NCBI GenBank assembly: GCA_032622095.1
Contig: CP136061.1
Location: forward strand, 264,586,077-264,650,076
Direction of reading: 5' to 3'
Length of the DNA stretch: 64,000 nucleotides
From: Siphonodentalium dalli
Taxonomy: Eukaryota; Mollusca; Scaphopoda; Gadilida; Siphonodentaliidae
Shown piece by piece: positions 3,882-57,300 of this stretch. How positions within the stretch are numbered: position 1 is the first letter of the stretch; every line of letters begins with the position of its first letter. Both the position numbers and the translations under genes were made by a program. The notes below the pieces were generated by a model. That model worked only from the letters and a program-made list of their open reading frames with translations. It ran no database searches and was not told where the DNA came from.

Positions 3882-4317
3882 TTAACCATTTGAGTGCCAG
3901 GGGCCGATCTCATCGGACCAAAACCTACAAAATAAGTCTGTTAAAGAATATAAGAATAAATTATTAAAATTGTAAAAAATAAAAAAATAAATTTTATTTT
4001 TTTTTGGCCAATGCATTCCCTTATATATGCGAGGCGACCTATGGTCGACTCGCATATATAAGAGAATGCATTGGCACAGGGCATAACTGTAACTACCACA
4101 ATGTGGTCAAGGAGCCGGTTCCAATGATATCCATATTTGTATGGTTCTATTGAGACAGAATATAAGAATAAATTATTAAAATTGTAAAATATTGTTAGGC
4201 CAATGCATTCTCTTATATATGCGAGGCGACCTATGGTCGACTCGCATATATAAGAGAATGCATTGGCACAGGGTATATGGGTTGATACAAAAATCGACCT
4301 GGCACTCAAAGGGTTAA
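3882..4317. mobile_element. TTAA-flanked MITE, family 2 (GAGTGCCAGG ends), unit 1
   Basis: Ends are TTAACCATTTGAGTGCCAGG on the left and, reversed, TTAACCCTTTGAGTGCCAGG on the right, about 436 bp apart. TTAA duplication plus a CCC start is the piggyBac pattern. It contains two copies of the 69-bp hairpin (about 4007-4075 and 4200-4267). Between them lies a piece matching the subterminal sequence of family 1 MITEs (the GGTTCCAATGATATCCATAT stretch), so it is a composite. No transposase. Confidence 0.78.
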
Positions 4318-4644
4318 ACTTAGGATGAAATAGAATTCGGCAAAAATCGCAAAATAAGCCTGGAAACAAATAAGATACATTTACATTTGTGAACATGTTT
4401 ATTCACCATCACAAGACAAAGAGACACCAATATATACAATACTGTCTGTTATATACAATAAATGGGACAATTTAGATGACAAAAAAATAAGAGACACACT
4501 ATACAAGCTAACAATAAACATAACAGTGATGATAGATTCACAACATCGTACCAACCTGAGTAAATAATTAAATCAACTTCAAATATTATTTAATGATGGT
4601 CTATCTCTTCCTAACAATTTTATATAGTGTATGGGGTATCTACC

Positions 4645-4862
4645 TACAGTAATGCCCTAAGTAATCGACTTCTTAACCACAGCAGAATTATGGGTAACTT
4701 TTCAGGATTTTGTTGGAAATATGGCTTGTTGCCATTCATCGGGAAAGCTCTCAGTGAGAGCTTTCCGATGAATGGCAACAAGCCATATTTCCGACAAAAT
4801 CATGAAAAGTTACCCATAATTCTGATGTGGTTAAGGAGTTGATTACTTAGGGCATTACTGTA
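4645..4862. mobile_element. TA-flanked full-length palindromic MITE, unit 1
   Basis: Nearly all of the ~218 bp is one hairpin. Arms start CAGTAATGCCCTAAGTAATC next to TA on both sides and meet at GCTCTCAGTGAGAGC. A TA target with CAGT ends suggests Tc1/mariner-type mobilisation (inference). Open frames across it are a by-product of the palindrome. Confidence 0.88.
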
Positions 4863-5273
4863 TATAAAAGCCAAGTGTTTGTGTCTGTAACTTTGTCATG
4901 ATGTTCTCACATCTATAAATATATCACCATCATGTCCACTTGGGCCCAAATTTTTACCATGTACTACTATTAGAATACTACATGCAAAATTTCAGGCCAA
5001 TTGGTGCAAGACGTCCTGAGATACAATGCATTTCCCAAATTTCTTAGAATAGAGTACCAGTGTTTTCTGTCACCATGGGTGTGGTATGTTTATTGAGAGA
5101 AGGTTAGTTATGAAGTTGTGGATTTTTAGAGGATGTCTTTGAGTTTTGAAAAATATTGTTCCAGGTGACCTTGACCCCACCAGTATGAAGTAGTAGCGAT
5201 TTCTGCGAAACAGTGGCTCCAGACACCAGCGTGACGTTTTAGCACCTAAAATTGCAGCGTTCTGTTTAGATAC

Positions 5274-5656
5274 TTAACCCTTTACCCAACAAACCGGGCA
5301 AAACCGGCCAAATAAAGCTTCAACAGCCTAAAATATCTTCGGCCTGTCTCAATAGAACCATACAAATATGGATATCATTGGAACCGGCTCATTGACACAT
5401 TGTGATAGTTACAGTTATGCCATGTGCCAATGCATTCTCTTATATATGCGAGTCGACCATATATAAGAGAATGCATTGGCCTAAAAAAAAAAAATTTAAC
5501 ACTTTTTACCATTTTTTATTACATTCTTTAACAATTTTATAATTTTTAATGTGTTAAGCCAATGCATTCTCTTATATATGCGAGGCGACCTATGGTCGAC
5601 TCGCATATATAAGAGAATGCATTGGCACATGGCCGTTCTGTTGGGTAAAGGGTCAA
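5274..5656. mobile_element. TTAA-flanked MITE, family 1 (CCCTTTACCCAACA ends), unit 1
   Basis: The left end is TTAACCCTTTACCCAACA. The right end is its complement, with the flanking TTAA decayed to TCAA. It contains two 69-bp-type hairpins; the first (about 5429-5481) has lost its inner loop and the second (about 5562-5627) is intact. Same family as the copies at 27544, 31607, 36162, 38543 and 56632. Confidence 0.85.
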
Positions 5657-6228
5657 AGACCGATTTCGGGGCTGAAAAATTTCCAGCAAGTCGTGTATGC
5701 TCTGATCGATGGAATAATCGTTTAAACGCCAAACGACCTAGAAACACCTATTTGGAAACACATGTCATACGTCAATCAACCGAGATGATGGCCAAAATGG
5801 TGCATGCAGTTAAAAACAAAATATTTCATGTATATTATATAGTTTATTTAATTCAGGCTCAAATGGCCCATATGATAGAAATATCAATTATATGTAATAC
5901 AGAATGTCTTTCCAATGTTTGAAAAGATAAGTTCTTTCTTATCAACATAGGAACAGAGCTCACAGCATTCCTGGCGTACATCCCACTTGCGCTACATCTC
6001 CATTCATATGCCATAAACTTCCTATAGGCATTGTTATAACATACAATTATGGGTGAAATTTTCCCACAAAGTGCAGCTGCAAAATACAACAATATAATGA
6101 TGAAATATACGATGAAAAAGATGGCGTTTTACATCAAATGAGCACTTGTAAAAAAATTCATGTGGATATTGGAACGGGAACAAATTATTCTATATTGCCT
6201 CATAATATCATCATCAAACGAACGCGAT

Positions 6229-6490
6229 TTGATTGATTGATTTTATTTGGCACAGGGTACCAGGGATAACACAAGAAAGTCTAGCACGCGCCGTTAGGGA
6301 GAGTCGTTTCTTGAAGTATCCATCCAGGCACACTATCTGACTCAGACAGGCACACTCATCCAGTTTTGCGATTTTTTTCGATCCACCGGGATTCGAACTG
6401 ACGGCGCGCACCTGGTCGTTCGTAGAGCAATTGTCTGTCACTGGTGCAGAAGGGTTATTTCACTTTACCGATTGCGCTAACGGAGCTCTC
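6229..6490 (-). mobile_element. tRNA-derived SINE, unit 1
   Basis: Read on the minus strand, it begins GAGCTCCGTTAGCGCAATCG (A-box-like). An AGTTCGAATCCCGG B-box follows, then a CCTGGTACCCTGTGCC segment and a tail of AATC repeats. This is a Pol III SINE layout. The tRNA part has an insertion between A and B boxes and no intact acceptor stem, so it is not a tRNA gene. Confidence 0.8.
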
Positions 6491-8084: not shown

Positions 8085-8172
8085 TCGATGCGATTAGCCC
8101 GAGATAAAGGGGCTAACAGAGTGTGGGCCCAAGCAAAACACAAAGCTGTCTCCACAAACAGTTATTCTCACA

Positions 8173-10793: not shown

Positions 10794-11221
10794 TTAACCA
10801 TTTGAGTGCCAGGGGCCGATCTCATCGGACCAAAACCTACAAAATAAGTCTGTTAAAGAATAAATTATTAAAATTGTAAAAAATAAAAAAATAATTTTTT
10901 TTTTTTTTTGGCCAATGCATTCCCTTATATATGCGAGGCGACCTATGGTCGACTCGCATATATAAGAGAATGCATTGGCACAGGGCATAACTGTAACTAC
11001 CACAATGTGGTCAAGGAGCCGGTTCCAATGATATCCATATTTGTATGGTTCTATTGAGACAGAATATAAGAATAAATTATTAAAATTGTAAAATATTGTT
11101 AGGCCAATGCATTCTCTTATATATGCGAGGCGACCTATGGTCGACTCGCATATATAAGAGAATGCATTGGCACAGGGTATATGGGTTGATACAAAAATCG
11201 ACCTGGCACTCAAAGGGTTAA
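10794..11221. mobile_element. TTAA MITE family 2, unit 2 copy
   Basis: Same as 3882-4317, with an 8-bp deletion and a longer T-run before the first hairpin. Confidence 0.78.
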
Positions 11222-12177: not shown

Positions 12178-12560
12178 TTAACCCTTTACCCAACAAACCG
12201 GGCAAAACCGGCCAAATAAAGCTTCAACAGCCTAAAATATCTTCGGCCTGTCTCAATAGAACCATACAAATATGGATATCATTGGAACCGGCTCATTGAC
12301 ACATTGTGATAGTTACAGTTATGCCATGTGCCAATGCATTCTCTTATATATGCGAGTCGACCATATATAAGAGAATGCATTGGCCTAAAAAAAAAAAATT
12401 TAACACTTTTTACCATTTTTTATTACATTCTTTAACAATTTTATAATTTTTAATGTGTTAAGCCAATGCATTCTCTTATATATGCGAGGCGACCTATGGT
12501 CGACTCGCATATATAAGAGAATGCATTGGCACATGGCCGTTCTGTTGGGTAAAGGGTCAA
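12178..12560. mobile_element. TTAA MITE family 1, unit 2 copy
   Basis: Same as 5274-5656, including the decayed right TTAA and the shortened first hairpin. Confidence 0.85.
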
Positions 12561-14988: not shown

Positions 14989-15076
14989 TCGATGCGATTA
15001 GCCCGAGATAAAGGGGCTAACAGAGTGTGGGCCCAAGCAAAACACAAAGCTGTCTCCACAAACAGTTATTCTCACA

Positions 15077-17693: not shown

Positions 17694-18130
17694 TTAACCA
17701 TTTGAGTGCCAGGGGCCGATCTCATCGGACCAAAACCTACAAAATAAGTCTGTTAAAGAATATAAGAATAAATTATTAAAATTGTAAAAAATAAAAAAAT
17801 AATTTTTTTTTTTTTTTTGGCCAATGCATTCCCTTATATATGCGAGGCGACCTATGGTCGACTCGCATATATAAGAGAATGCATTGGCACAGGGCATAAC
17901 TGTAACTACCACAATGTGGTCAAGGAGCCGGTTCCAATGATATCCATATTTGTATGGTTCTATTGAGACAGAATATAAGAATAAATTATTAAAATTGTAA
18001 AATATTGTTAGGCCAATGCATTCTCTTATATATGCGAGGCGACCTATGGTCGACTCGCATATATAAGAGAATGCATTGGCACAGGGTATATGGGTTGATA
18101 CAAAAATCGACCTGGCACTCAAAGGGTTAA
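17694..18130. mobile_element. TTAA MITE family 2, unit 3 copy
   Basis: Same as 3882-4317, with a longer T-run before the first hairpin. Confidence 0.78.
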
Positions 18131-19086: not shown

Positions 19087-19469
19087 TTAACCCTTTACCC
19101 AACAAACCGGGCAAAACCGGCCAAATAAAGCTTCAACAGCCTAAAATATCTTCGGCCTGTCTCAATAGAACCATACAAATATGGATATCATTGGAACCGG
19201 CTCATTGACACATTGTGATAGTTACAGTTATGCCATGTGCCAATGCATTCTCTTATATATGCGAGTCGACCATATATAAGAGAATGCATTGGCCTAAAAA
19301 AAAAAAATTTAACACTTTTTACCATTTTTTATTACATTCTTTAACAATTTTATAATTTTTAATGTGTTAAGCCAATGCATTCTCTTATATATGCGAGGCG
19401 ACCTATGGTCGACTCGCATATATAAGAGAATGCATTGGCACATGGCCGTTCTGTTGGGTAAAGGGTCAA
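19087..19469. mobile_element. TTAA MITE family 1, unit 3 copy
   Basis: Same as 5274-5656. The truncated fourth unit ends before this element. Confidence 0.85.
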
Positions 19470-24599: not shown

Positions 24600-25035
24600 T
24601 TAACCATTTGAGTGCCAGGGGCCGATCTCATCGGACCAAAACCTACAAAATAAGTCTGTTAAAGAATATAAGAATAAATTATTAAAATTGTAAAAAATAA
24701 AAAAATAATTTTTTTTTTTTTTTGGCCAATGCATTCCCTTATATATGCGAGGCGACCTATGGTCGACTCGCATATATAAGAGAATGCATTGGCACAGGGC
24801 ATAACTGTAACTACCACAATGTGGTCAAGGAGCCGGTTCCAATGATATCCATATTTGTATGGTTCTATTGAGACAGAATATAAGAATAAATTATTAAAAT
24901 TGTAAAATATTGTTAGGCCAATGCATTCTCTTATATATGCGAGGCGACCTATGGTCGACTCGCATATATAAGAGAATGCATTGGCACAGGGTATATGGGT
25001 TGATACAAAAATCGACCTGGCACTCAAAGGGTTAA
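24600..25035. mobile_element. TTAA MITE family 2, unit 4 copy
   Basis: Same as 3882-4317. Confidence 0.78.
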
Positions 25036-27515: not shown

Positions 27516-30500
27516 CTGCAAAACAAATAAAATTAAAGATGTATTAACCCTTTACCCAACAGAAGGGCCCTGTGCCAATGCATTCTCTTATATATGCGAG
27601 TCGACCATAGGTCGCCTCGCATATATAAGAGAATGCATTGACTTAACACATTAAAAATTATAAAATTGTTAAAGAATGTAAGAAAAAATGGTAAAAAGTG
27701 TTAAATTTTTTTTTTTTTTAGGCCAATGCATTCTCTTATATATGCGAGGCGACCTATGGTCGACTCGCATATATAAGAGAATGCATTGGCACAGGGCTAA
27801 CTGTAACTATCACAATGTGGTCAAGGAGCCGGTTCCAATGATATCCATATTTGTATGGTTCTATTGAGACAGACCGAAGATATTTTAGGCTGTTGAAGCT
27901 TTATTTGGCCGGTTTTGGCCGGTTTGTTGGGTAAAGGGTTAAGGGTTCTAGACCTTCAGGTACAGCAATGACATACAAAAACTACATTAACTTTCTGTTT
28001 CTGCTTTATTTCATTGAAAAAAATGTTGAAAACCAAATATGACGTACCAAGAGTGTACCAACAGAGAATACTCTATCTTGTTAGCCCCCGCAATCAAGGA
28101 TCAGCTAAGAGATTTAATGTGAATTATGATAAAAATAATCCACTTTATTTTGCCATTATATAGAGAGTAATCAATTGGTTCCAAGAATTAAGTTAAATAA
28201 TTCACGAGAGGCGAGAGACGTCAGTAAGAAACGAGTGCGCGTTAGCCTCGAGTGAATTATTGAACGTAATTCTTGGAACTAATTGATTACTCTGTTTATT
28301 ACACTTCTGCATCAATTTGGTTTGCCAAATATGATTAAAACACACAGAATTAATGTATGAAAGTCCCGATGTGGAGAAAGATCAACCATCGAATATTCAG
28401 TCTAGATCAGTAAGCGACGTAACGTCAATGACGTCACTGAAAATGACAATTCACTAGTGACATTACCATTTTTAATTAACCCTTTGAACCCTGACGCCCC
28501 ACAGTGATCGACACCCTGACCCGGGGCTCCCAGTGGTATTTCCGCTTAAATTAGACAGTGTCTAGTCGCATGGTGTTGATTATGTTCAAACTGTGACACA
28601 GGTCTGAAACTTTACAGGTTAGTTCCCCATGGATCAGCGATCATTATAAGATCGCGAGACTTTGCCTCACGGCAATTCCTTGGTAACAGTTGCTAGGCAA
28701 CTACCTGGATTGACTGGAAAATGTAAATATAGCTTATAGCATCGTTATTCAACCCCAGTGATTGCGTTTTTTGATACAGGTAATACCGTAACGTGAAATT
28801 TGAGATATACCCGACCAGAATAGTGAACCAAATATCCCATTTATGGGTAGCAACAGTTGCTAAGCAAATACCACTAATGATCGAATGACATTGCACTAAC
28901 TATTCAGTTGTATGTTTTGCCTTAATTTAGACAGTGTCTATAGTCGCGTGGTGTTGGTTATGTTCAAAGGGGACACATAACTGAAACTGTACAGGCATGC
29001 TGTGCATGCATGGACCACTGATCATTGTAAGACCAGGATACTCTGCCACCCGATCTCTCCTTAGAAACGGTTACTAGGCAACTACCCGAAATTTGCAGGA
29101 TAAACGAATTCTAGCTTTTAACGTTGTAATTATACATCAGCGAATTGCGTTTCGATGCAACCAATATCCTAATGTGAAATTTAAGATATACCTGACCATG
29201 TGCGAGTAAGTCAACTTGATATGCAATAGACTTTTTGCCGCATGTGGCATAACAGAGACTGATATTACAGAGACCAAGCAGAAACAACGTAATTTCCCGT
29301 AACATATCGTGGTCCCATTGCTCAAGTAAGCTGTCTAGATTTGTGTCTACAGAACATGTGAAACATGCAACTATATGTCATATATAGTGCCACAATTCAC
29401 TTAAACGCATTTTTCAAAATGAATTATAGCCTGCGCGCATGTGCATATTTTCCTACCCGTTTCTAGCGGGCAGCCAATCCAATATACACACCTTTGCCAG
29501 CGCTGACTTCAATAGGCCCATTTAAATATATATATTAGTTGGTATGTCGTGTATAAGTACGTTATAACCCATTTATTTGTCATTGTGCTGGTCTGCGCAT
29601 GCGCGAATAAATCAACTTGATAGGCGATAGACACTTCCCCATATGTAGCAGAACACTTGACTAATATATACGCGAGGGTAATTTAAACTGACATTGTGTG
29701 TCTAAATTATGTCTGTTCTATACACACACGGGGAACACGAAATTATATGCCCTAAATATAGCGACACAGTTCGCTTAAAATATCGTATGTTTTTGTAGAT
29801 TATATGCTATGCGCATAAATTTCTACCCGATACTAGCGGCCAACCATTCCATACGAACCATGGGCGCCGCTGACATATGTGGGGGCAATTTAAATATAAA
29901 TCAGTGGGTCTGACGCTCGTTATACCATATATAAATTTGCTACCGAATCATGTCGTCGCTGCACCGAAATATCGGTGTTACGGAATATAGTCACGGTTCG
30001 TTTGCACCTAAATATCGGTGTTACGGGTTCAACGGGTTAACAGCGTTTTCGATGGAAATCGCGCATAGGCGTATCATAAAGACAAATAATACACCCGATC
30101 TTCATTTTATTTGTATTTTAGTCACGCAATAACTATTTGTAGTCTTGAAATCAGGTTTTATACAAATATGTTGTTGTAACGAGAGACCATCTTTAAAGGC
30201 CCACTTAATTTTTGAATCACGAGATCACATTATATACAACGTATTCCATATTATATACCATTTGAAAGAGGAAGCTCCAAAACATTGTATTATCAACTGA
30301 TCCGGTCGAATAATTGGGAATATATTGTTTTTGTCGAGGTACTGAGGTGCGTTCTGTGATTAATTTTGATTCAGACTATACTATAAAGTCTATTATTCTC
30401 AATGGAAGGGGAATAATTATATCTCTTTGTTTGAATTCTGATGCATTCTGGGGGGAGTCTTGGAATGAATCTGAGAATCTCTATCACTTGGTGGACACTA

Positions 30501-33500: not shown

Positions 33501-36500
33501 CCCGCTGATAATTATTAGGCGACACGGAAGTGTGATGTTGCCGACAACAGACTTCATCTAGATTTGGCAGCACGTGTCTTTTTGAGAAATAAGCACTGGA
33601 ATGGCGTGCACACGTGGCAGCCTCATCATGAGAGAATTGAATCACTATGCTGTCATTTAAGACTGATTATAAAATAAGGATTGTCGCATCCTACTTTGAA
33701 CTGTTTGTTTGCCCATGTTGAAATATTTGTTATTGTGATGTTGTTTTCTCTTGTTAAATTTTTTTTTTTTACATTAATTAAAACTATTATTTGGTTTGAA
33801 TTATATACTGACAACATCCACCCATGTGGACCTCCTTTTGGAATTCACTGCCGTCCATTGAATGTATAAAAATCTGTGCCAGAATTGTCTTCAGAATGAA
33901 CAATAAAGAGCGTTTGTTCGTGATCAGGTATTTTTCTCCCGCGAAGATTTTATGAACCTAAATATTCAAATCCTTTCAATACCGTGGTTACTTTAAAGAC
34001 AAAACTGCGACAGAATGCCAATTGAACTTTGATAAAACTTGAAAGGGAATATCGAGGAGAAAGTGACATGTCATAATCATGTTAACTCAAACAGTTACGA
34101 TGTAGCAAACAATGTCATTGCTACATTCCTCGCGCCCAGTTTCTGAATAATGCTGACGTAATCGCGTGCACCTGGCATTTGAGATGTACAGATGTGCGCA
34201 AAATTAACGGCGGTTATCAACCTCCCAATCGAGGGTTTCACTCAATTTTTTGTGGCAATATACGTAAACAATACTTTATAATGGATATATAACAAAATAA
34301 AAATTTAATGAGGCATGCATGGTTTATACATCCATTGAATAAAAGCGACCACGTGGTTCGTTTTTGTGAATTTGCAATAGATCGGATATGGGAGGGAGAT
34401 CATGGGATCATTATAATTGTGCTAAATTAATCGGCTTTCTGGGAAACACGGCACCAGAGCGCATCGCTTCAACAAAACGGGAATATCTGAGAATGTACCG
34501 TACTGCCGTTGCGAAAACAAAAGAATCGTGGTTCTCCGTTTTTTTTATTGGCGTATACGGCGCCGCTGTGTATTCCAATGTTTATTTATTTATGAAACTC
34601 TATTACAGTAAGCATGTTTGTTGAGATACTATACTTGTCAATATATGTCATATCTGTCTGGTTTTTAAAATCCAGATTCCTACATAAATTATACCAGTAA
34701 TAAACGCATGCATGACGTATTGACCGCGTGGTTGTTTGTGCACGCGAGGTTTCCCCCGAATTATCTGCATTTTCTGATCAGGGCTAGTGGTTTTCAAAAC
34801 TTGTCAACATGAAATTTTTTATTTGAATATGATGACTAAATTCTTATATTTAGGAATGTTGGTAGAGAATACAATAAATGGTGTATTTTCAATAGCTTGT
34901 TAATGCATAATAAAACGGAAAACATTAAATGAATTGAAAAGCTTACCGCCCACCCCTAATTTCGGGGTGTCCGTTCGGGGAAACGTGTGCATTATTCCTT
35001 TTGACCTTATACACGTGTCCCATCACAATTCTAATTTGTTTTTCAACACACATTGATTGTGTAATCTTTATTCAGTCCATCCTCTGGTGGCAAATATCGT
35101 GGACTTATAGATCGAGCAAAGTGTAAAATGTCGCGTATTTTCAGTTTCTGGCAATTAATTTTTACTTGGCAATGGATTTGCCACATATATGGATCGATAA
35201 TATAACACTTTTATTTAATATGCTCATTTGATCATATTTATTTTCAAAAATAATAGCAACTCTAATAAAAACATGGGAATCATTTTATTTACCAAATCTC
35301 GGTTATGGTGTCAAAGCATACCACATTAGAACAAAATATCGGTAAGCTCCTCCCACAGCCAACCAATTAAAGCAGAGAATAAAATCTCACAAACTAATCC
35401 TGGATGATTGACAGGTGTATGTCGACGTGCTAGCATGCACAGGATCGACGCATGAAGTTTTTTTTATATTTGACAACAAAGTTCCATTAAAATCTACCGG
35501 TACGTTAGATCGTTGAAACAGTTGGGTTAAATATAAATGTGATTTGCATAATGACCTTAAAGCCGATATTATGTACGGATTTAAATTTCCTGTAATTAAA
35601 AATACTAACCTTCGTATATTTCTACTAATAAAACATGTTTTAAACTCGAGAAAAAAAGACGATACAAACCAGGAATCTAACCCCGGTGTACTTGCCGTTC
35701 GGCCGCGGTGTACTTGCCGTTCGGCCGCGGTGTACTTGCCATTCGACCGCGGTGTACTTGCCGTTCGACCGCGGTGTACTTGCCGTTCGACCGCGGTGTA
35801 CTTGCCGTTCGACCGCGGTGCTCAGCCGCGGTTCCACAAAGTGACACCGCGGCCGAACGGCAAGTACACCGCGGTGGCATTGGACACTTGTTTTGTCCAG
35901 CGGGGTATATTAAAATTATTTGAAAAGTATTCAAATTCAAATGACAATAATAAACTAAGCCCGGCACTCTCTTTCATGTGGATGGTAATTACAAATAACA
36001 GAAACTGTGGGAGAATGTTTATTTCTGTCATTCATTTCAATTTAAATATGAGATTAATTCTCATATGTGTTGTCCTATGCAGTCTTGTTTGTTAAACGTT
36101 TCTCTTTTACATTAGGAGAGCCATGGGATCTGTAAACATATAATCTGTTACATGAATTTGTTTAACCCTTTACCCAACAGAACGGCCCTGTGCCAATGCA
36201 TTCTCTTATATATGCGAGTCGACCATAGGTCGCCTCGCATATATAAGAGAATGCATTGGCTTAACACATTAAAAATTATAAAATTGTTAAAGAATGTAAG
36301 AAAAAATGGTAAAAAGTGTTAAAAAAAGGATTTTGTTTAGGCCAATGCATTCTCTTATATATGCGAGGCGACCTATGGTCGCATATATAAGAGAATGCAT
36401 TGGCACAGGGCATAACTGTAACTATCACAATGTGGTCAAGGAGCCGGTTCCAATGATATCCATATTTGTATGGTTCTATTGAGACAGACCGAAGATATTT

Positions 36501-39500
36501 TAGGCTGTTGAAGCTTTATTTGGCCGGTTTTGGCCGGTTTGTTGGGTAAAGGGTTAAATGTATAGTTAGTTAATCCAAATATTTCTGCTTCAGTTTTTTG
36601 GAGTTTCATGTAACCTACCTCTTTTCACAGGCTCTCGACTTCTTCCTCTCCCTCCTCCTCCTCCTCTGCTGTCATCTTTCCGTTTCCTATCGACTCGACC
36701 ACGATTATCTTCTTCTGGTTCAGATTCCGAGTCACTCGTTGAATCCAGATCGCTCAAGCTGTCATCAGACAGATCCTAAAGCAGATTAAATTCAATTACA
36801 ACTGAGGTCTGTTGAATGTAAAAGCAACAAGATTTATAAAATTGTGTCGTGTTACCAGAAAATGCATGTAAACAATAAATTAAACGATCGTGATGTGACA
36901 GTGAACTTTGATAACTAGATGCTCCCTGACTTACTACTAACAGTTACATGATCCTGATTTGTTACGTGATATGTTCAACAACAGAAGGGATCTGGCTTTG
37001 GGAATTAGATCCATATAGGATTTATCTGCAGATGTGAGATGAAGTATGTCTGACATTTGCAGAATGAGATCCCCAGAGGGTGAATTTAGTGATGCTACCA
37101 CTGCACAACAGGCTACCATCATCAAATTCACCCTCTGGGAACCTCATTCTGCTTAGGCCTCATCTTCTGGGAAGTATTTATGGTCTCAAATTAACATTGT
37201 TTTCAGTTACTTTTTCCTTTCTGTTCAGTTTCTATATCCCCTAATTTGCAGAAGATAAAATGCATAATCGAGGTAACTAATGACTGAATATCACCAACTT
37301 CAACTGGGGAACTTTAATCTGATCCTAGGTCTCCCATAGCAGTTGAGGCTCCCAGAGAGTAAATTTTGTGATGCTAGCCCACATTGCACGATAGCATCAC
37401 TAAATTCACCCTCTGGGGACCTCATTCTGTAAATGACAGACACACTATATCCAGGCTTGTATGAGATCTCAGTTTTTATAAACAGAACACAATGTGTTTT
37501 TTAGTCCACTCTCTGTCATTGAACGTCAAGCGTTGCATTGGTTGCCTTTGGCAAGCGACCTCATGCAACAGTTGTTGCAGGGGACTCACCGTTAACAATC
37601 AAGTACCCAGTCGGAGTCGATGGATATTGTCAGTATGCTAATCCTGATGCACTCCATTTATTAATATACTTACCAATATACGAGCGCCTGCGGTGCATAA
37701 GATACTATAGGTGGCGGGATGGGGAGGTGGGTGGGTACTTACCAATATACGAGCGCCTGCGGCGCATAAGATACTTTAGGTGGCGGGATGGGGAGGTGGG
37801 TGGGTACTTACCAATATACGAGCGCCTGCGGCGCATAAGATACTATAGGTGGCGGGATGGGGAGGTGGGTGGGTACTTACCAATATACGAGCGCCTGCGG
37901 CACATAAGATACTATAGGTGGCGGAATGGGGAGGTGTGTGGGTACTTACCATTTTGCTTCCTCCTGAGCAAGGATGGGTAATAAATACCCCATGATGGGG
38001 TAATACAGTGGTACAGTGGAATTTACAGTGACATGAGCAACAGTAATGCCCTAAATAATCGACTACTTAACCACAGCAGAATTATGGGTAACTTTTCAGG
38101 ATTCTTCTCAGTGAGAGCTTTCCGATGAATGGCAACAACCATATTTACGACTAAATCCTGAAAAGTTACCCATAATTCTGCAGTGGTTAAGGAGTCTATT
38201 ATTTAGGGCATTACTGTAGCTCACGTCACTCAGTGAGAGTTTTCCGATGAATGGCAATAAGCCATATTTCCGACTAAATCCTGAAAAATTACCCATAATT
38301 CTGCAGTGGTCAAGGAGTCGATTATTTAAGGCATTACTGTACATAAATGCATCGATTATTATTAACTCTTTCATGATGGGAGCTGTACTGGTGCAGCATT
38401 AAAAATCCAGTCATTGAGTTGTTTCTGGCCCGAGGCCGGGTAGGATGGTCGGAGTGCAGTGTGCAGTTCCCTTCATCCTTTCTTGATGTGACCACCACAC
38501 CCACTATTTGACTTCGACCAGGATCAAAAGGTGAACCTGTTATTAACCCTTTACCCAACAAACCGGCCAAAAACGCCCAAATAAAGCTTCAACTAGGGGT
38601 GCCACGATTAATCGTATAATCGATGAACCATTGATAAAGCCGATAATCGATTACCATTTCCATAGTCGATTAATCTGCGTTATTTATTTCAGACGTCGGA
38701 AAATGCCGGGTATTATTGAATACGGTATTTCTTTTACACAGTTTAATCTACAACCGAAGGGTTAACAACATCAATTTAATCAAAGAGATTCCGACAACAT
38801 GAGTACTACTAACTTATGTTGCAAACACTCGGCAGTTCATTTGATGATGCGACATGGTTACTCTTCGGCCCATTGTATATTCTACAAATCGGTTGCACTG
38901 CAGCTTTGAACTTATGGCAGCGTCGTTGTATATAAATTTAAACTTGACAGGTGGCACTATGGCTTTGAAATGTGCCGACTGTCACCTTAGATGTTACTAA
39001 TACAGGTTATCGTGTATCATACTTAACTTGTTCTAAGTCCTGTAATTTGCGGGTGGGGGCACACGTTTGTGATTGTTAACCACGCACTGGATGTTTGATG
39101 AAACTTATAGTTTCTAACTTTCCTACTTTTATATTGTTTGTATGTTTGGCTATTCGTAACTGAAATCAATCGCAACGTTCGTTCAAATGAACTCACAAAT
39201 ATTATAATCATAACATCGCCGAGAACTGTGGTGGTATTCAATACATTGTGTTCATTGGTCATTAACAGTGGTTTATGATGCACTTTATTAATGTAAAAAA
39301 TTACATCAGCCGATGCCACAATCAGCGACAGTGCATTCAACCAGCCCCCAGCCAATAGGCCATATTACGGAAATCTTCCACTGAAGTTATTAGGTACGAT
39401 TAATCGATTATAGTCGATTATTGACAACCGATTATCGATTATCAAAATCAATAATCGTGGCACCTCTAGCTTCAACAGCCTGAAATATCTTCGGTCTGTC

Positions 39501-42500
39501 TCAATAACACCATACAAATATGGATATCATTGGAACCGGCTCATTGACCACATTTTGATGGTTACAGTTATGCCCTGTGCCAATGCATTCTCTTATATAT
39601 GCGAGTCGACCATAGGTCGCCTCGCATATATAAGAGAATGCATTGGCCTAAAAAAAAAACCTTTTTTTTAACACTTTTTACCATTTTTTCTTACATTCTT
39701 TAACAATTTTATAATTTTTAATGTGTTAAGCCAATGCATTCTCTTATATATGCGAGGCGACCTATGGTCGACTCGCATATATAAGAGAATGCATTGGCAC
39801 AGGGCCGTTCTGTTGGGTAAAGGGTTAAAGATCATCTGCCAGTGCATTCTCTTATATATGTGAGGCCATGTTCAAACATAAGGATTGATAATATTGGACA
39901 GAGATTGATAGAATATAAATACCTCTTCATCTGACCTCTCCTCGGACATCAGAATATCTGCAATATAAACAGATTGCGAGCTTTACAATCATCAAATTCA
40001 TTAAAGGGGAGATGCACATTTTGCATAAATCCAGCCAAAAATGGCAAGAGATTTTCAACAAAGAATTTCTCTGGATCTATCTGGTGAAAAATCTTGAATT
40101 TTACATATCATCTTCATTGTATATAGAATCTGAGCAATTAAAATCTTAATAGAGACCATAAAAACATTGGATATTAATACATTTGAGAGGTTGAAAAGTT
40201 TCTTTTATTGTCCCTTTGGATACCAAGAACTGCTACAGTAATAACTAATTTCACACAAGACTCCAATCACCAAATAGCTTATTGTCTTGGCTCTATGAGA
40301 CGAGGCTTCATTTGTATCATAATGGTGAGTTTGATTTTTAATTGCAAATATAGCATCATACCCCAAATATTATAATAAAGAATAAACAGTTCAAATTGAA
40401 ACTAGAGGTGTGACCGTCCCAATGGGACTAAGGATACCCCCCGTGTTTTTAAAATACTAAGATGTTTCACATGTCAGTAAACATTTAGTTAAAATAATAA
40501 AATAACAGTTCCCATTGCAGGTGCACAATCCTAACCCTAATCTTAAACATATTGACCGAAAAATGTAGGAATAAAAGCTCGGACAAAATTATGCATGTTG
40601 CAAAAATGTTCTAAGTCGAAAAATGGGAATAACTCCACACAAAAAAGTCGGACAGACATCATAATCGCAGGTGCACAGGTTCCCATGGTACTAAATATCA
40701 GTGCCAAGATTAAAAAACATTGACCTAAAAATGTAGGAATAAAAGCTCGGACAAAATTAGGCATGTTGCAAAAAAAATTCTAAGTCGAAAAAGGGGGATA
40801 ACTCCACCAAAAAATGTCGGACAGACGCGTCATAATCGCAGGTGCACAGGTTCCCATGGTACTAAATATCTGTGCCAAGTTAAAAAAAAATTGACCTAAA
40901 AATGTAGGAATAAAAGCTCGGCCAAAATTATACATGTTACGAAAAATTTCTAAGTCGAAAAAGTGGGGATAACTCCACAAAACAAAGTCTGACAGACGTC
41001 ATAATCGCAGGTGCACAGGTTCCCATGGTGGTTGATGTCTGTGCCAAGTTTCACGGAAATTGATCAAAAAACGACTGAGAAAAACTCCGGACAAATTTGT
41101 GTCCACGGACGGACGACACGACGGACAGACATACCAACAAATGGCCACTTACGTGTCTACACAATTGAGTGGCTAGATACCTACCGGGTATGTGACAAAT
41201 CGTTTTTACATGGCTTCAAAAAGTATTCTCACGAAATGCTAGTTGCGAGGTAGCAAATAAAGTGTCAATGTATTCTGTGACTTAAGGTTGCCACATGTGA
41301 AGTAGTCAGCAGATTGTATTTTATCAACCCTTCATTCACAATCTAGAGAGTTCAAAATAAAGCGTGATTAAGAAAAATATTATATATTTGTAAATAAGGT
41401 TGCTAATGTGGCTAGCCACTTAAGCCGTCCGTCCGTGTCCATAGAACACTGGTTGGACATCCATATTGATGGGCAAATTGTTTCCATTTTTTAAAGAACT
41501 ACTTTTTCAAGTGACTTCCTCAAGCCACTTAGAACACATTTCAGGTGTCAAATAAGGTTGATAATGTGGCTAGCCACTTAAGCAATTTTGTGAGCATTAA
41601 GGATGTTTATGTGCCTTCTTAGTCACATTAGTAGCATTTTGTGAGCACGGATGAGCTGACTCCAGTATACCCCCCCCTAACTTCTTTGCGGGGGGTATAA
41701 TAAAGGAGTCACAAATATTCCAACCCAATGTAAACAAATTTTGATATGCAGTGTGGTCCACTCAACCGGGGAGAAATCAACTGGAATTATGGTGAGGGGT
41801 GTGGTCCACTCAACCGGGGAGAAATCAACTGGAACTAGAGGTGTGACTGTCCCAATGGGACTACGGATACCCCCCTGTTTTTAAAATACTAAGATGTTTC
41901 ACATGTCAGTAAACATTTAGTTAAAATAATAAAATAACAGTTCCCATTGCAGGTGTACAACCATAACCTTAATCTTAAACCTATTGACCAAAAAATGTAA
42001 GAATAAAAGCTTGGACAAAATTATGTATGTTGCGGAAAAAATTATAAGTCGAAAAAGGGGAATAACTCCACACAAAATATGTCGGACAGACGTCATAATC
42101 GCAGGAGGTGCACAGGTTCCCATGGTACTAAATATCAGTGCCAAGATTAAAAAACATTGACCGAAAAATGTAGGAATAAAAGCTCGGACAAAATTATGCA
42201 TGTTGCAAAAAAAGTTTCTAAGTCGAAAAAGGGGGGATAACTCCAGCAAAAAAAGTCCGACAGACGTCATAATGGCAGGTGCACAGGTTCCCATGGTGGT
42301 TGATGTCTGTGCCAAGTTTCAAGGAAATTGATCAAAAAACGACTGAGAAAAACTCCGGACAAATATGTGTCCACGGACGGACGGACGGACAAGCTGACTC
42401 CAGTATACCCCCCCCCTAACTTCGTTGCGGGGGGTATAATTATGGTGAGGGGTGTGGTCCACTCAAGCAGGGAGCCATCAACTGTAATTATGGTGAGGGG

Positions 42501-45500
42501 TGTGGTCCACTCAAGCAGGGAGCCATCAACTGGAATTATGGTGAGGGGAAAGGGACCCTAAAAATAGGGTGTCTGTCATTTGCAGAATGAGGTTCCCAGA
42601 GGGTGAATTTGGTGATGCTAGCCCACTATGCGGGGTAGCATCACTAAATTCACCCTCTGGGGACCTCATTCTGCAAATGACAGACACCCTATTTCAAGGC
42701 TTGGGGGGAAAGGACCCTAAAATCTCCATTTTGTTATCTGTATAGAGCATCGATTAGTTTGACTGTGTAGCTGATTTACACATTAATTAATAAACAGTTT
42801 TAGGTAGTACCTAATACACCATATTCATTGTGAATCAATATATGTCATTACTGTAACGGCCATACAGTATTTTGATGCAATTATACCTATCCTACATGGG
42901 CCTAGGGGAATCACCCCTACTTTCGCAAGGTTAATAGGGTGCCAAACCACCACAGCTCAGTCACCACTGACGAGCCGAGTCTAAATCCAAACAAGCTTGG
43001 CTTGATGTTTCTGAAAACTGGAGTCGTTAAGTTTTATTAGTTGCGGACCAATGTCTGTTTATTATATTCCAATGTGTATTAATGCATTATCTTGGCATGG
43101 CTGAATTTGTCATTCTGATCACCAATAGTGGAAACCCTGGTTTTACTAACCCTTGAGTTTCTCTGCTGGTTGTGAGATAATCGCTCTGGGATGGGAAGGA
43201 GATAGCCATGAAACCTGCTCCGTCAGACAGTTCCAATAGTAGTATCTGCCACTGAAAAAGAATACAAGAAAATCTGGTCTCTTTTCCCAAACAAGACTTA
43301 TAATATAAACCTATAATATACAGTAATGCCCTAAGTAATCGACTCCTTAACCACAGCAGAATTATGGGTAACTTTTCATGATTTAGTCGGAAATATGGCT
43401 TGTTGCCATTCATTGGAAAGCTCTAATTGAGAGCTTTCCGATGAATGGCAACAAGCCATATTTCCGACTAAATCATGAAAAGTTACCTATAATTATGCTG
43501 TGGTTAAGGAGTCGATTACTTAGGGCATTACTGTATAAAGACTTATAATATAAACCTATTGACTGCCTTGAGGTGGAATATCGAGAACTATTTCCCCGAG
43601 TTGGTGTCTTCTGAACAGCATGCAGGACTATTGACCAAGTCCGCCGGCCGAAGTTAATAGTCCTACTTACTGTTCAAATGACACTATTCTCACTGCGTGC
43701 CAGCCGGCAGATATATAGTTTGAAGACTATAGCCTGGGTAATAATAGTTTGCTTGCCACTAATCTCGCCATGCACCAATCATGATGACAAGCGGATAAAT
43801 AATATGACGACTATAGCCCGGGTAATAGTTAGCTTGCCACTAATCTTGCCTTGCACCAATCGTGACGACAAGCAGATAAATATTATGAAGACTATAGCCT
43901 GGGTAATAGTTTGCTTGCCACTAATCTCGCCTCGCACCAATCGTGACGACAAGTGGATAAATAATATGAAGACTATAGCCTGGGTTATAGTTTGCTTGCC
44001 ACTAATCTCGTCTTGCATCAATCGTGAAGACAAGCGGGTAAATAATATGCAGACTTAGCCTGGGTAATAGTTTGCTTTCCACTAATCTCACCTCGCACAA
44101 TCGTGACAACAAGCAGGTAAATAATATGAAGACTATAGCCTAGGTTATAGTTTGCTTGCCACTAATCTCGCCTCGCACCAATCGTGATGACAAGTGGATA
44201 AATAATATGAAGACTATAGCCTGGGTTATAGTTTGCTTGCCACTAATCTCCCCTCGCACCAATCGTGATGACAAGTGGATAAATAATATGAAGACTATAG
44301 CCTGGGTAATAGTTTGCTTGCCACTAATCTCGCCTCGCACCAATCGGTCCAATCGTGACAACAAGTGGATAAATAATATGAAGACTATAGCCTGGGTAAT
44401 AGTTTGCTTTCCACTAATCTCACTGGGAGTCACCTCGCACCAATCGTGATGACAAGCGGATAAATAATATGAAGACTATAGCCTGGGTTATAGTTTGCTT
44501 GCCACTAATCTCGCCTCGCACCAATCGTGACGACAAGTGGATAAATAATATGAAGACTATAGCCTGGGTAATAGTTTGCTTTCCACTAATCTCACTGGGA
44601 GTCACCTCGCACCACTCGTGATGACAAGCGGATAAATAATATGAAGACTATAGCCTGGGTGATAGTCTGCCAGCCAAAATTCTTGCCTTGGGCCAATCGT
44701 GACGTGTTAGCAGGCACAATTCTGGCTTTGCACCAATCAGCAGATGGGTAATCGCACATTGAGATGTCCCTCAACTCAGATCAATTATCAGTTTATTACA
44801 ATCCTTGTTGGTGTTAAGTTGGAAACAATATACATTCATGTTAAATCAAACATAGGAAAAAAATGGAAGAAAATTTACAGGTATAAATCAGAATAAATTC
44901 CGACTGATGCATTGTCAAAGATTATATGTTACAGCGTAACAAGTGCGAACTCTCCATTTTATCGAAAATAAACATTTGAACTAGTGTTGAAACGATTAGG
45001 GAATTTACTAGTCATGGTTAAGGGGCGGTATGACCGTGGTCATAACCGGCTTACAACCTCATTGAAAGGGTCAATTAATTAGACCATAGCGCTATATGAA
45101 CCACATACTAGTAAATATGTGACCCGCCATCTCAAATACAGTCGTAAATCAGGATTTTTTTACCCTGTGCCAATGCATTCTCTTATATATGCGAGTCGAC
45201 CATAGGTCGCCTCGCATATATAAGAGAATGCATTGGCCTAACAATTTTTTAAATAAATGTTTCTTACATTTTTAGGACATAAAATAAAAAAACATCCATT
45301 ACCCTGCAGGGAGCCCCACACATATATAGAAGCATATAGAAGAGTGTTGTCTGCTCATGTTTGTCTGGGGCTCTGTATGGGTAAAATTATAAAATTGTTA
45401 AAGATTACAAGAAAAAATTATTAAAATTGTTAGGCCAATGCATTCTCTTATATATGCGAGGCGACCTATGGTCGACTCGCATATATAAGAGAATGCATTG

Positions 45501-48500
45501 GCACATGGTAAAAAAATCCCAACTTACGACTGGATTTGATATGGCGGGTCACATATGTCACCAAATGTTTTTACTCACGTGTTAGTATCACCGACTTCCA
45601 CCCATCCAGGAGGCAGTGGATATTTCGAAATCATTCTCTCTCGTCTGCTTTTCATGTCGACATCTTCTTTGAACTTTTTAACTCCCCATCTCTTTTTGCA
45701 GTAACTTGTACATTCATGGAACGAATTAGATTTGTTTGGGCATGCAGAGACCTCATGAACAAGGTCTCCGTCGTTATCGATTTCAGCTGTATCTGCTTCG
45801 GCTTCTGCTGGTTTCGGTATAGCGTCCTCTACAGAATTCTCTGGGAGCTGAGGGCTCACTTCTGGTCTCCCGGGGTCATCATAGTCCTCAGCAAACACTT
45901 CCTCATCATCACCTGAAATAATATATTATGAACATATATTTATTTCATGATCCTACCCTTATTCCATTCATTAAACATTCGTTTAAAAACAGGAAATAAA
46001 TGATCAAAGAGATGTGTGAATATCACTTAATTTAATAATTGTGTAGGTCATTGTGTTGCCTCATTTAGCTGTTGTCGCGAATGTGGTAAATCCGTGGGCA
46101 TATTTTCATGCATATTCAGTTAAAAACTTGAGTTACCGCAATTTACCGGGAATTTCTGCTCTGGTTTTGTAATTTAATAGCAATACCGATTACCGTACCG
46201 ATACCGCGGTAAATCGACGAAAATTTACCGATACCGAGCTTAAAATTTCAATACCGCCCATCTCTACTGGAGTCACCACAGGGTTATAAAGTTACGCGGC
46301 CGTGGTAGCACCTGGACCTCCACATAAACATCAGCACATTGAGTATCAAGTAGATAGATAGACAGTTGCAGATTAGGATATCATGGGTTGTTCACAGGCC
46401 ATGGTTAACCACATGAATGACTACCGGTACCCTACAATTTTTGCGTACAAAAGACTGCAATTCCATCGTAAGCAGAGATAAACCAAGGATACGCTCTGAT
46501 TTTGCATCTAAAATCAATCATTACTTGATATCATTTTTATACTCGCGATCTTGTCGTGAGCATGTGCAGTCCAAGTTCCAACTGCCGGTTTCTACCACAG
46601 TTGTTGGAAACTTGTCAAAAAACCCGAAAAGAGATGTCACCTCCACTACTTATTAATATAATTGACAAGTAGGGAAAGCTACTGAGCCCACCCATCTCCC
46701 ATCAAACCAAATATGTCACCGCTCGTTTCGTGTTCAATTGCATCAATAAAAACATTAATTTCAGAAAAGTACCACATCCTAGTAAATAAAACATATATTT
46801 CTTTTCATGTTTACCGTAAGTGCAGTAGAAAATTATCACTTTATAATTACTTTTATCGTATACAACTTCCCAAACAACAGCGGCTCGCTGATTCCACGAG
46901 TCGCCATCTGAGAGTCAAGCGCAGATAATAGCAATTGAAATTATCTGCCCTTGACTCTCGGATGGCGACTCGTGGAATCGGCAGTCGCCATATTTCAATT
47001 GTAAACACATGTTCATGACGTTGTTGTCATTTTTTAATTTGCGGCAGGTACATGAAAATCGACCAGAAAAGCAATCCGATCCTGCAATCGGGCAAGTTTA
47101 TGATATGAAATCGATGCTTTCAGTTTATTTAAGTTGTTGGAATTAATTTAGTTGCTTGATTACCCACGATTTATGAAGTTTTGTGCTGTTTACAGATGGA
47201 AATGTTGATATTTTATTTTTAGAATCACCAGTCTATAGTCGAAAGCGAGATTACAAGATGTCGTATTAGTACGCAAATAACATAAATAGAAAACTTACAT
47301 GTTTCAGAATATTGTATTATTCTAAAATCAAATAGCCTATATAAAAACATATTTATGAATAGGAAAGTACCGTATTCCGACGAAATATGTCATATTTTAC
47401 GACGGACTCCTTGTGCGAGTTCACTCCGGTCAATTCTATTTTGGTGCACTGGGATAAACAACATTGTGGAGAAAAATACGTTTAATAACATTTGAATGTA
47501 AATTAATCGAGAAATTGTCGGTTATCAGGTACAATCATATTGCTTATCACCCATATCTATTGATGGGCATAATCAAAAGCTTGATCCCATGCGCGATTGT
47601 CTATACTGATCGATTTCCATTCGTAATCGTATTCTAGTATTGACGGATGGGTTTGTTTGTAATCATGGCCGCCCCGCCCCCATGGCTTGTGTATCGGCTA
47701 TCGCAAAATAATGTTAGGATATTATGGTCTCCCATACCAAGAAAAATAGTTCCTACGAATGTAAACAATGCAAATGGAGGACATTTTGCCATTATTCAGG
47801 ATGACAGTACTATTTTCACAGGCAGGGTATTTGGGAAAGTTCTTGTTTTTCCTCAAAATGATGTCTCCTTGTCTCTAGCCAGATTCTTATAGGACCATTT
47901 TGACTGTTCAGGTACAAAAAGTTAACCATTGGAACTGGAGAAACGCCGTTTGGGGACATGATTTTTTGTCACTCTACCGCGAGTAAATTCTAACAGCTAT
48001 AATTTCTCTACTAATGACAAGATCTTTGTTTATTATTGATTATTATGTGTGAAAAATATGAAGTTTATCCATTCTATGGCCGGTGAGTAATTATTGATCA
48101 TCTGGAGGTAGGGTGCAATCCGCGGTGGCCATCTTGACCAGACTTTACCATCCCCTTAATGTTTTTATTGTTGCAATTGAACACGAAACGAGCGGTGACA
48201 TGGTTTGATGGGAGATGGGTGGGCTCAGTAGCTTTCCCTACTTGTCAATTATATTAATAATTAGTGGTGGTGACATCTCTTTTCGGGTTTTTTGACAAAT
48301 TTCCAACAACTGTGTTTCTACATAATTATGACGGAAATCTTTCCACATACGATTGAATGAGGATTCATTAATTCTTGACAATAATAATAGGTGTTGAGAT
48401 AATAAAATCAGACGGATATCGCAGCATGTACCATAGGCTTTAAAGCGAACTATTTCAATGAAGTGAAACTGAAAAAGTGACGCATGCTGGCCGATCACCA

Positions 48501-51129: not shown

Positions 51130-51146
51130 GTTGTGGTCACGCACCC

Positions 51147-54300: not shown

Positions 54301-57300
54301 GGACGTGCTACCGGTCCTGCTTGGGGACGCTCTAACATTATCTGTGTGGTGTATAACACACGGATAAGAATATGGGATCTGAAAGAGACACACATTACTT
54401 TTTCCATCAAATATATATATACCAATTAACCATCCTATGTGTTGTTACTAGGACAATATATCCTATCTGTAATCGTAATAGTGATTTTGCGAAAGGTCTC
54501 TATTTATTATAAGTAAATCTACTTACACTAGAGGAAAACACAGTTTAGACATATTGTCCTACATGAGTTCATGTAGCTCATTTAAAATTTTGTTTAGTAC
54601 AATGTCCTTGACCAAATACAGTAATGCCCTAAATAATCAACTCCTTAACCACAGCAGAATTATGGGTAATTTTTCAGGATTTAGTCGGAAATATGGCTTG
54701 CTGCCATTCATCGGAAAGCTCTGTGAGAGCTTTCCAATGAATGGCAACAAGCCATATTTCCGACTAAATCCTGAAAAGTTACCCATAATTCTGCTGTGGT
54801 TAAGGCGTCGATTATTTAGGGCATTACTGTACCGTACATGATCATTTGGAGGGGTTTTCAGGAAAAAATAAGCAGACAACAGATAAAATTACAGAAGGAG
54901 TCCTATTTATTGCAGGGTAATGTTCAGATAATAAGTTCAAACAATGGTCGTTTTTGAGTATTTAGTATAGAAAGGGTTAAAACTGAATTAGTGGATTCAT
55001 CGAGTAAATCATAGATTTAATGCATGGATGGCCTTCGTTATAGGTTATAATTTAAAAATAACAGTTACCAAATTATAAAAAAAATTCCTCAAGAATATAG
55101 TAATAGTATAGTATGAATGCGATATTATCTGCTAAATCTTGATATGCGAAGATTAGCGAGCTATACCAGTATGTTGCATACTATTTACATACTGTCTGTT
55201 TATATAACATGTTGTTTATTTACAAACACAGAGTACTAACATGACAATAACATGCAATTACGCGATATTTATGATTGGTATAAGAACAGTGTTTGTCTTT
55301 AAGATAATATTCTTACTGTTTATGGCGGTTATAATGGATGTGACTATTTAAACAGCAATACGGTTACCATATCTTTAACACTAAATCCACTGTGACTGTC
55401 GCCAGAATTCCTGAGAGCGCATTTTATTTTTTGCAGTCCATTATATTGATTGGCTTCGTGTTTCTGATAGAGGTTGCTACTGGCGTCCTAGTTTTCTTCT
55501 TTCTGTCCAAGATGCGAAATGACCTTCAGGTAACATTGAGAAACAACATCCAGTCGTACAATGATGACATGGTGGCCATGGATTTCATCGATTCTCTTCA
55601 GTTCAAAGTGAGTGTTATATTTCAATTATTTATTGGTATATGAAATGATAAACAAAATTGTATCGCCTTCCATCGGTCCAGGAGTCTGTGAAACCATCCA
55701 ATTGTCCATCTGTCATTCTATAAAATATTTAGAGCTCTCATTAGTTGGATTTGAATATTTTGAAGAGTTTGGTATTCTTATGAACCACCGTGTGGGGGGC
55801 GATATCTGCTCTATCTCTGTCATAAGTAACTTTTGAATGATGTTTGGTATTCTTATGAACCACCGTGTGGGGGCGATATCTGCTCTATCTCTGTCATAAG
55901 TGATAAGTCACTTTTGAATGATGTTTGATATTCTTATGAACCACCGTTACATGGAACGGATTTTAATGATCTTTGCTATGCTAATGAACAACGGTGTGGG
56001 GGCGATATCTACATGGAACATGCCGAAAGCGACAAAATGTGCGTCGTTACATCGGACATTTTGTCGCTTTGGGCGCACGTGCCGAAAGTGACAAAATGTG
56101 CGATATTAGCGCATGTTTCGGCATGCCGAAAGCGACAAAATGTGCGCTGTAACATTTTGTCGCTTTCGGCATGCCGAAACATGTGCTACTATCACACATT
56201 TTGTCGCTTTCGGCACGTTACTAATGGCGCACTTTGTGTCGCTTTTGGCGCGCCATTAGGAAGTGGCCCTAATAGTATTCCATATGTTTTTGAATGTTTG
56301 TTTACAGCTGAGTTGTTGTGGGGTCAACAGTTACATCGACTGGCAGAAGAACAACGCTTTCAGCTGTTCACTGCCCAAGGCAGCTTGTGGTGCTCCCAGA
56401 TCGTGTTGTCGGATAGCGAGTAGTGCTGAGTGCGGCTACCAGATTGGCAAGTTTATGGTGAGGCTAATTTAAAGGGGGACCCTATACTAAATCCGGCCAT
56501 TTATGGGACCATCTCCTTTTATACAGAATACAGAATAGGCTATAATTTACTCATATTTAATTTCGCGGAGTACAATTTGTTTTGCTCACTTTTTAATTCG
56601 CTCTTAATCGTTCCTGAAGAGACTCATTTTATTAACCCTTTACCCAACAAAACGGCCAAAAACGCCCAAATAATGCTTCAACAGCCTAAAATATCTTCGG
56701 TCTGTCTCAATAACACCATACAAATATGGATATCATTGGAACCGGTTCATTGACCACATTGTGATGGTTACAGTTATGCCCTGTGCCAATGCATTCTCTT
56801 ATATATGCGAGTCGACCATAGGTCGCTTCGCATATATAAGAGAATGCATTGGCCTAAACAAATTCTTTTTCTAACACTTTTCACCATTTTTTCTTACATT
56901 CTTTAACAATTTTATAATTTTTTCTTACATTTTTTATAATATTTTTCTACATTCTTTGACAATTTTATCATTTTTAATATGTTAAGCCAATGCATTCTCT
57001 TATATATGCGAGGCGACCTATGGTCGACTCGCATATATAAGAGAATGCATTGGCACAGGGCCGTTCTGTTGGGTAAAGGGTTAAAGACCACCATGACGAA
57101 AATTTACATCAAGTAGAACATAACTGCATCATTATTTTGTTGTGATGCTTAGTGCTTATGCGTGCTCCAAATAATAATTCTGATATTTAAACAACGTTGT
57201 GGATATGGATACATGGTTTTGTACTTCTTCAGTCTTGTATACGTGTATTTCTTACAAGCATTGCAACATCGAAGATTTTACCATACATAATCGCTTTACA

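Follow-up and report, generated by a model that had tools for sequence, protein, structure and literature searches.

At least four MITE families of the scaphopod Siphonodentalium dalli share a 69-bp palindrome behind unrelated tips

Foldback and other long-inverted-repeat elements have a strong potential to fold back on themselves. The elements of Siphonodentalium dalli that we describe here share this potential, but their hairpins are self-contained internal palindromes, not termini. The piggyBac-type TTAA MITEs resemble them in the TTAA target, the CCCTTT tips, the length of a few hundred base pairs, and the high copy number. The differences are that, here, a 69-bp near-perfect palindrome lies inside the tips, and that we found no transposase locus with these tips among 32 that we examined, for 17 of which candidate tips were listed. 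The ends of piggyBac and piggyBat contain short palindromes that are bound by the C-terminal domains of the transposase, and those of piggyBat lie no more than about 120 bp from the tip (PMC11707139). The subterminal position in piggyBac-superfamily ends is alike, but the palindromes described in that study are family-specific and are 19 bp or about 14 bp long, while ours is 69 bp and is also present in a family that does not use TTAA. In the P-MITEs of Anopheles, as in our elements, the tips and the interior may differ in history: in the account given in PMC1562414, the interiors have no significant identity within a family, and one origin considered there for foreign interiors is sequence copied from an ectopic location once a break has occurred. 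In S. dalli, by contrast, one interior module is common to four tip families, and mosaics are visible. In the literature that we searched, with most subscription papers lying outside it, we found no case of MITE families that have a hairpin in common but differ in their tips and saw no earlier description of a palindromic module that is common to several tip families.

We analyzed a window of 64,000 nucleotides (positions below are within this stretch). The reference copy of the hairpin, at 27722-27790 on the + strand, was described by the initial annotation as a near-perfect 69-bp palindrome with a TAT loop and one G:A mismatch, and folding bore this out: the stem has 33 positions, with a single G.A mismatch. 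The DNA fold is at -37.8 kcal/mol, which none of 200 shuffled sequences equaled. Across the 2.227-Gb assembly, the exact 69-mer occurs 87,638 times (43,752 forward and 43,886 reverse), and the reversed control had no matches on either strand genome-wide. The central 33-mer of the hairpin occurs 114,866 times. If substitutions are independent and all copies are of a single age, then the ratio of these two counts gives a rough estimate of 0.75% change per site, 147,000 hairpins, and 10 Mb of sequence. BLAST found the hairpin at 27 places in the window, of which 22 are near-complete (15 of them exact) and 5 are degraded. This agrees with an earlier count of more than 25, but the number is inflated by a tandem array: positions 1-25757 contain about 3.7 copies of a 6.9-kb unit that are 99.6 to 99.7% identical, so just four sites account for 14 of the 27 places, and about 17 places are independent. 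Except for the transposase loci, the loci that we sampled come from the window and the initial 27 Mb of a single chromosome, while the copy counts are genome-wide.

At least four MITE families house the hairpin, and their tips are unrelated: A, B, and D have TTAA targets, and C has an AT-rich 4-bp duplication. A elements are 355-470 bp (mostly about 400 bp), with ends TTAACCCTTTACCCAACAGAA.. to ..TTGGGTAAAGGGTTAA; one hairpin lies 30 bp from the left end, and its inverted partner lies about 153 bp from the right end. B elements are 188-484 bp, with tips TTAACCCTTTGAGTGCCAGG and a single hairpin about 50 bp from one end. Outside the window, 10 of 11 B-tipped elements have one hairpin (these are 8 insertions, since L001/L002 and L013/L016 have common flanks), and one B-like element, at L004:1195-1382, has none. 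C elements are 436-462 bp, with tips GTGACCCGCC and a third inner module; a hairpin lies about 50 bp from either end, and, as in A, the two form an inverted pair. D is an older TTAA family with tips TTAACCCTTTCATGACGGGAGCTGC and a variant of the same hairpin. In its majority sequence, which we built from 13 elements (9 of 20 fetched loci plus L050, L058, L012, and L057), the hairpins are 50 and 48 bp from the ends, and divergence is 9-19%, depending on the region; the other 11 fetched loci were D-tipped but A-type, were satellite, had no readable pair of hairpins, or were a copy (L189). In B, and at either end of C and D, 48-52 bp lie between the outer tip and the hairpin; only A differs.

The window contains A, B-tipped, and C elements. 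An A element of 399 bp at 27544-27942 (+), with TTAA at both ends, contains the reference copy as its right hairpin; its left hairpin, 30 bp from the left end at 27574-27642 (-), has one altered base at the hairpin base (the BLAST match covers 27574-27640). In the A element at 36162-36557 (+), the right hairpin lacks 5 bp near the apex, and the one at 31607-31973 (-) has one degraded hairpin. Another A element, at 56632-57084 (-), has a longer spacer and a length of 453 bp, with hairpins at 56785-56853 and 56986-57054. The A element at 5274-5656 (-) has an apex-deleted hairpin at 5426-5480 and is repeated in the array at 12178-12560 and 19087-19469. A-type sequence at 39468-39831 (-), with only one end resolved, has hairpins at 39579-39647 and 39730-39798. 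The C element occupies 45119-45552 (+), with hairpins at 45169-45237 and 45434-45502 and ATAT on both sides (45115-45118 and 45553-45556); its third inner module, at 45302-45381, had no BLAST match to the 69-mer. Two TTAA families plus a third family at 45115-45556 are what the initial annotation had proposed, and they correspond to A, B, and C. It had also placed the hairpins in inverted pairs, which is correct for A and C but not for B, with its one hairpin, nor for a B-tipped element at 3882-4317 (+), whose two hairpins (4007-4075 and 4199-4267) are in direct orientation because this element is a B-A-B mosaic. This mosaic is repeated in the array at 10794-11221, 17694-18130, and 24600-25035.

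TTAA is exact at both ends in 23 of 30 A elements. Among 14 C loci with both tips, 11 have an exact 4-bp repeat (8 ATAT, 2 AAAT, and 1 ATGT), and L116, L117, and L127 do not; in a separate set of hairpin loci, the C-family members L015, L037, and L041 had no target duplication. Genome-wide, the exact tip words occur 43,631 times for A (2 of 42 sampled matches were right ends), 11,682 times for C, 3,221 times for B, and 2,602 times for D, although some of the D matches are satellite. A and C combine short length, terminal inverted repeats, a target site duplication, and high copy number, and B has the terminal repeats and the copy number, as in MITEs. Elements of A, B, and C are all shorter than 500 bp. 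Helitron-like elements are defined by the absence of a terminal inverted repeat and of a target duplication; we rejected such an identity, as A, B, and C have inverted tips and A and C have target duplications.

By their TTAA target and CCC-type tips, A, B, and D look like members of the piggyBac superfamily; C, with ATAT, AAAT, or ATGT at its target, does not. These features point to piggyBac-type enzymes as the probable movers of A, B, and D and to another enzyme for C, and amplification probably involved at least two types of transposase. A search for the piggyBac transposase domain (PF13843) gave 128 matches from 116 scored candidates (649 at first look), many of them with open frames. We examined 32 of these loci, 12 of them with flanks and 20 with 1.3 kb of downstream sequence only; none had a hairpin nearby, and candidate tips at 17 of the 32 were none of the A, B, or D tips. 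With 0 of 32 loci having the hairpin, we rejected the idea that it is a native part of piggyBac elements.

When we sought A left tips without reference to the hairpin, all 40 were adjoined by the hairpin or a remnant of it. (The sample comprised 40 loci with 42 matches, 40 of which were left ends; merging common flanks leaves 35 insertions.) Of the loci that we sought by C tips (20, from 19 insertions) or by B tips (20), every one likewise had the hairpin or a remnant. Conversely, we sorted 74 exact hairpins from 60 loci by their outward flank: 26 were A left, 17 A right, 14 B, 12 C, and 5 other. This tally keeps copies of one insertion, such as L006/L007/L011, and two hairpins with a mutated A-left tip (L021 and L024) were moved by eye out of the 7 that were initially "other." The six bases just outside the hairpin are ACAGGG in 59 of the 74, and in 67 the bases on the inner side end in GTTAG (30), GTTAA (23), or TTTAG (14). 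The moving unit is larger than the hairpin: it includes the end of the AT-rich spacer, the hairpin, and usually the ACAGGG outside.

Some elements join parts of different families. By BLAST, the mosaic at 3882-4317 runs from a B start through a hairpin into 84 bp of A right flank, which reaches element position 278, and then into B spacer, a second hairpin, and a B tip. Its first junction can be narrowed down to a stretch of spacer and hairpin that is common to A and B (positions 58-204) but not to the hairpin itself. In L111, an A element has a C-type spacer after its left hairpin. These are the only two cross-family mosaics that we mapped, with boundaries taken from BLAST matches to single reference copies. 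In neither can the junction be assigned to the hairpin itself as opposed to the surrounding shared stretch. Within A, the left tip of L099 is fused to the right hairpin. A D tip with an A-type hairpin and the AT-rich repeat of the A/B/C spacers was found in one insertion that is present four times (L174, L176, L177, and L184, although the apex type of L184 is not readable) and in L186; these loci are a possible link between the old family D and the young families. The sharing and the mosaics are established, and the hairpin has apparently been passed between families by recombination. The proposal that the module is traded between elements is supported by the four tip families that have it in common and by the two mapped mosaics.

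Our preferred explanation, which we give a probability of about 0.6 as a whole, is that an old subterminal palindrome was recombined onto new tips and then amplified. On this view, the hairpin has long been a subterminal part of non-autonomous DNA transposons and became attached to four or more unrelated tips; about 48-52 bp lie outside it in B, C, and D, with A as the exception. We infer that the joining occurred by template switching while an excision gap or a stalled fork was re-copied: synthesis would halt in the palindrome, restart in another of the roughly 10^5 like palindromes, and exit with the tip or spacer of another family. Chimeras with tips that a resident transposase accepts (probably of piggyBac type in the case of A, B, and D, and of another kind in that of C) would then amplify into new families. 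The identity of the hairpins in A, B, and C would reflect a recent common origin and filtering among the source elements that amplify. Counterpoints are the small number of mapped cross-family mosaics, the piggyBac transposase loci without the hairpin, the lower private rate in the A hairpins (below), and the constant tip of about 50 bp, which random switching does not predict.

The initial annotation had described the arms as better preserved than the spacers. In A elements that were selected by their hairpins, the hairpins did seem to be about 4 to 7 times better preserved than the right flank, but we rejected strong preservation, as this contrast was mostly due to ascertainment and to subfamily variants. 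Because the hairpin-selected sample was biased, we repeated the comparison with elements chosen by their tips. For C, we used 14 of 20 loci (omitting L117, which is a copy of L116; L118, truncated; L127, a mosaic; L115 and L130, with deletions; and L132). Private changes were about as frequent in the hairpins (29/1,896, or 1.5%) as in the inner module (14/1,110, or 1.3%; p = 0.63), and the two spacers (18/854 and 19/1,052) did not differ significantly from the hairpins, although one spacer was higher when all changes were counted (p = 0.03).

For A, we began with 42 tip matches and removed two right-end variants (L096+ and L102+), a copy (L102-), and three rearranged elements (L099, L101, and L111), which left 36. 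Of these, 23 have both tips intact at the expected distance, and omitting L078 and L103 (copies of L076 and L097) left 21. In these 21 elements, private changes were at 12/2,888 in the hairpins (0.42%) and 22/2,749 in the right flank (0.80%; p = 0.08). A part of the AT-rich spacer had 14/1,246 (p = 0.016 versus the hairpins), but this contrast may be mutational because the spacer is AT-rich. The p values versus flank and spacer were 0.73 and 0.09 with the 36 elements, in which some right hairpins are misaligned, and 0.22 and 0.002 with the 23. If all changes are counted, then the A hairpins are far below the flank (p about 1e-9), because the flank carries subfamily variants: no hairpin variant was common to two of the 21 elements, as compared to 38 letters of flank in shared variants (60 changes, 22 of them private). 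Among the 36 elements, hairpin positions 41 and 46 each had a variant in two elements, and the pair L090/L091 is one insertion.

The claim about the arms therefore survives only in part: the C hairpins change as quickly as their interior, and the A hairpins change at about half the rate of the flank, which is not significant. The better preservation of the arms largely reflects sampling and the identity between families, and the A data argue weakly at most for modest preservation, upkeep, or constraint. Once inserted, copies change as fast or nearly as fast as the DNA around them, as shown for C, and the hairpin looks more like a traded building block than like a sequence that the cell maintains. 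Two outcomes had been named in advance as counting against exchange and function: confinement to one terminus family, which is contradicted by the four tip families, and equal divergence of arms and spacers together with an absence of mapped small RNAs, of which the equal divergence is about what we see in C.

The hairpin might instead be a portable functional cis element that aids the transposition or survival of any MITE that captures it, as a protein-binding palindrome, by spacing the transpososome, or as a structure for a host factor. We consider this unlikely. The placement, with 48-52 bp between hairpin and tip in B and at either end of C and D, would fit such a role, as would the transposase-bound short palindromes reported for piggyBac and piggyBat ends (PMC11707139) and the lack of shared hairpin variants in the 21 A elements (with the two positions noted above in the larger set). 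The stem itself is also suggestive. Relative to A, B, and C, the majority sequence of D has compensated changes at pairs 5, 30, and 31 and a wobble at pair 8, with the G.A mismatch and the loop unchanged; the change at pair 5 is only in the left D hairpin, and the wobble is only in the right one. Six random substitutions left no broken pair in 1.8e-4 of simulations, although a single templated event at the apex might account for both pair 30 and pair 31, and pairs 5 and 8 alone give 0.8%. As the differences in the stem are only compensated or wobble changes, the element persisted as a hairpin: either source elements were selected for pairing, or one arm now and then serves as a template for the other. 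This is a further counterpoint to switching, as something selects or templates the hairpin and hitch-hiking alone is insufficient. Against a cis element, the hairpins of A sit at 30 and about 153 bp, the 32 piggyBac loci do not have the hairpin, and single C copies are without constraint, although dead MITEs would need none. Also, the tips and target of C differ, so it is unlikely that one transposase binds all of the families.

Another alternative, which we consider quite improbable, is nested insertion: a MITE with hairpin ends (CCCTGTG..CACAGGG) would have entered several other MITEs independently, which then amplified. The stretch from CCCTGTG to CACAGGG and part of the spacer are indeed common to A, B, and C, and the core in C has TA on both sides. 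However, C is symmetric anyway, the core is not flanked by a duplication in A (GG/CA) or D (AT/TT), and B has one core edge only. Furthermore, none of the 40 A, 20 B, and 20 C tips that we sampled was empty, and just 5 of the 74 exact hairpins had other flanks, of which L031 and L044 keep C-like flanking bases.

It is less probable again that the hairpin is kept as a putative source of dsRNA or small RNA. The stem is long and near-perfect, and in a predicted fold of a whole A element as RNA, the two hairpins pair with each other (-214 kcal/mol, z of -24), but such folding is expected of inverted-repeat MITEs anyway, and the window had no Rfam match at the gathering score.

Finally, the hairpin had been suggested to be favored as a cruciform or a repair template, in which case arm-to-arm repair or gene conversion might keep the copies identical. 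Arm-to-arm correction would erase the G.A mismatch, yet the mismatch is stable: among 115,602 copies with the rest of the 33-bp center intact, 114,866 retain it, and 736 (0.64%) have the alternatives (G/T or A/C) that could be corrections. At a normal control pair, the same kind of change was found in 578 of 115,444 copies; the excess of 158 copies may contain a few corrections. Among 129 hairpins from elements chosen by their tips, 7 had changed in length, 6 of them in the central part, and one change leaves a perfect 36-bp palindrome. The count requires both 12-bp bases to be present, which favors central changes; the length changes around the apex are compatible with extrusion or slippage and are proof of neither. 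Despite the very many exact copies, the lean of the A hairpins toward fewer private changes (p = 0.08 versus flank and 0.016 versus spacer), the excess at the mismatch, and the central length changes, upkeep by such repair is largely refuted by the persistence of the mismatch and by the unreduced private rates in C, and we consider it extremely unlikely.

The origin of a short internal sequence between unrelated MITE tips is rarely visible. Here, the G.A mismatch acts as a built-in orientation label on about 10^5 copies in one genome, so the junctions, the direction, and the age of exchanges could be counted. A more speculative reading, and an unlikely one in our judgment, is that the hairpin is a second-order parasite: a non-coding palindrome that spreads via the tips of unrelated transposons, mostly at about 50 bp from their ends, with selection at the level of amplifying source elements preserving the hairpin over long periods, and that boosts the tip that carries it and outlives and outspreads its host families. 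If the position and the pairing of the hairpin turn out to be selected, then this would be a case of a transposable module that has transposons as its hosts.

In the D-tipped loci L174, L176, L177, L184 and L186, which carry the ends of the older MITE family, the hairpin sequence is A-type and there is a long array of AT-rich repeats; these loci may link family D to families A, B and C. Four of these (L174, L176, L177 and L184) are copies of a single insertion; L186 is a further locus. The tip of family D has also turned into a tandem satellite with a unit of about 37 bp, seen in L178 and L192, with clusters on contig C1 of the genome assembly (G000) at about 3.257-3.273 Mb, 4.908-4.924 Mb and 8.447 Mb. 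Family C has a third inner module (..GAGCCCC..GGGGCTC.., window 45302-45381); a diverged version is present in L014, and L041 and L114 contain part of it, adjoining C ends.

At the start of the window (1-25757), a 6.9-kb unit containing MITEs and a TGTACCAAAAAG-type minisatellite is repeated in tandem, with about 3.7 copies at 99.6-99.7% identity. Near the window's end lie a 29-bp tandem repeat (57883-58891; about 35 copies, 97% matches) and an open stretch of 372 codons (62649-63764, minus strand) that matches zf-RVT weakly, at an E value of 3.6e-5 that falls short of the Pfam cut-off, and may be what is left of a retroelement.

Across the assembly, 116 scored candidates gave 128 matches to the piggyBac transposase domain (PF13843). 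Many of these matches have open frames of over 600 codons, which suggests recent activity.
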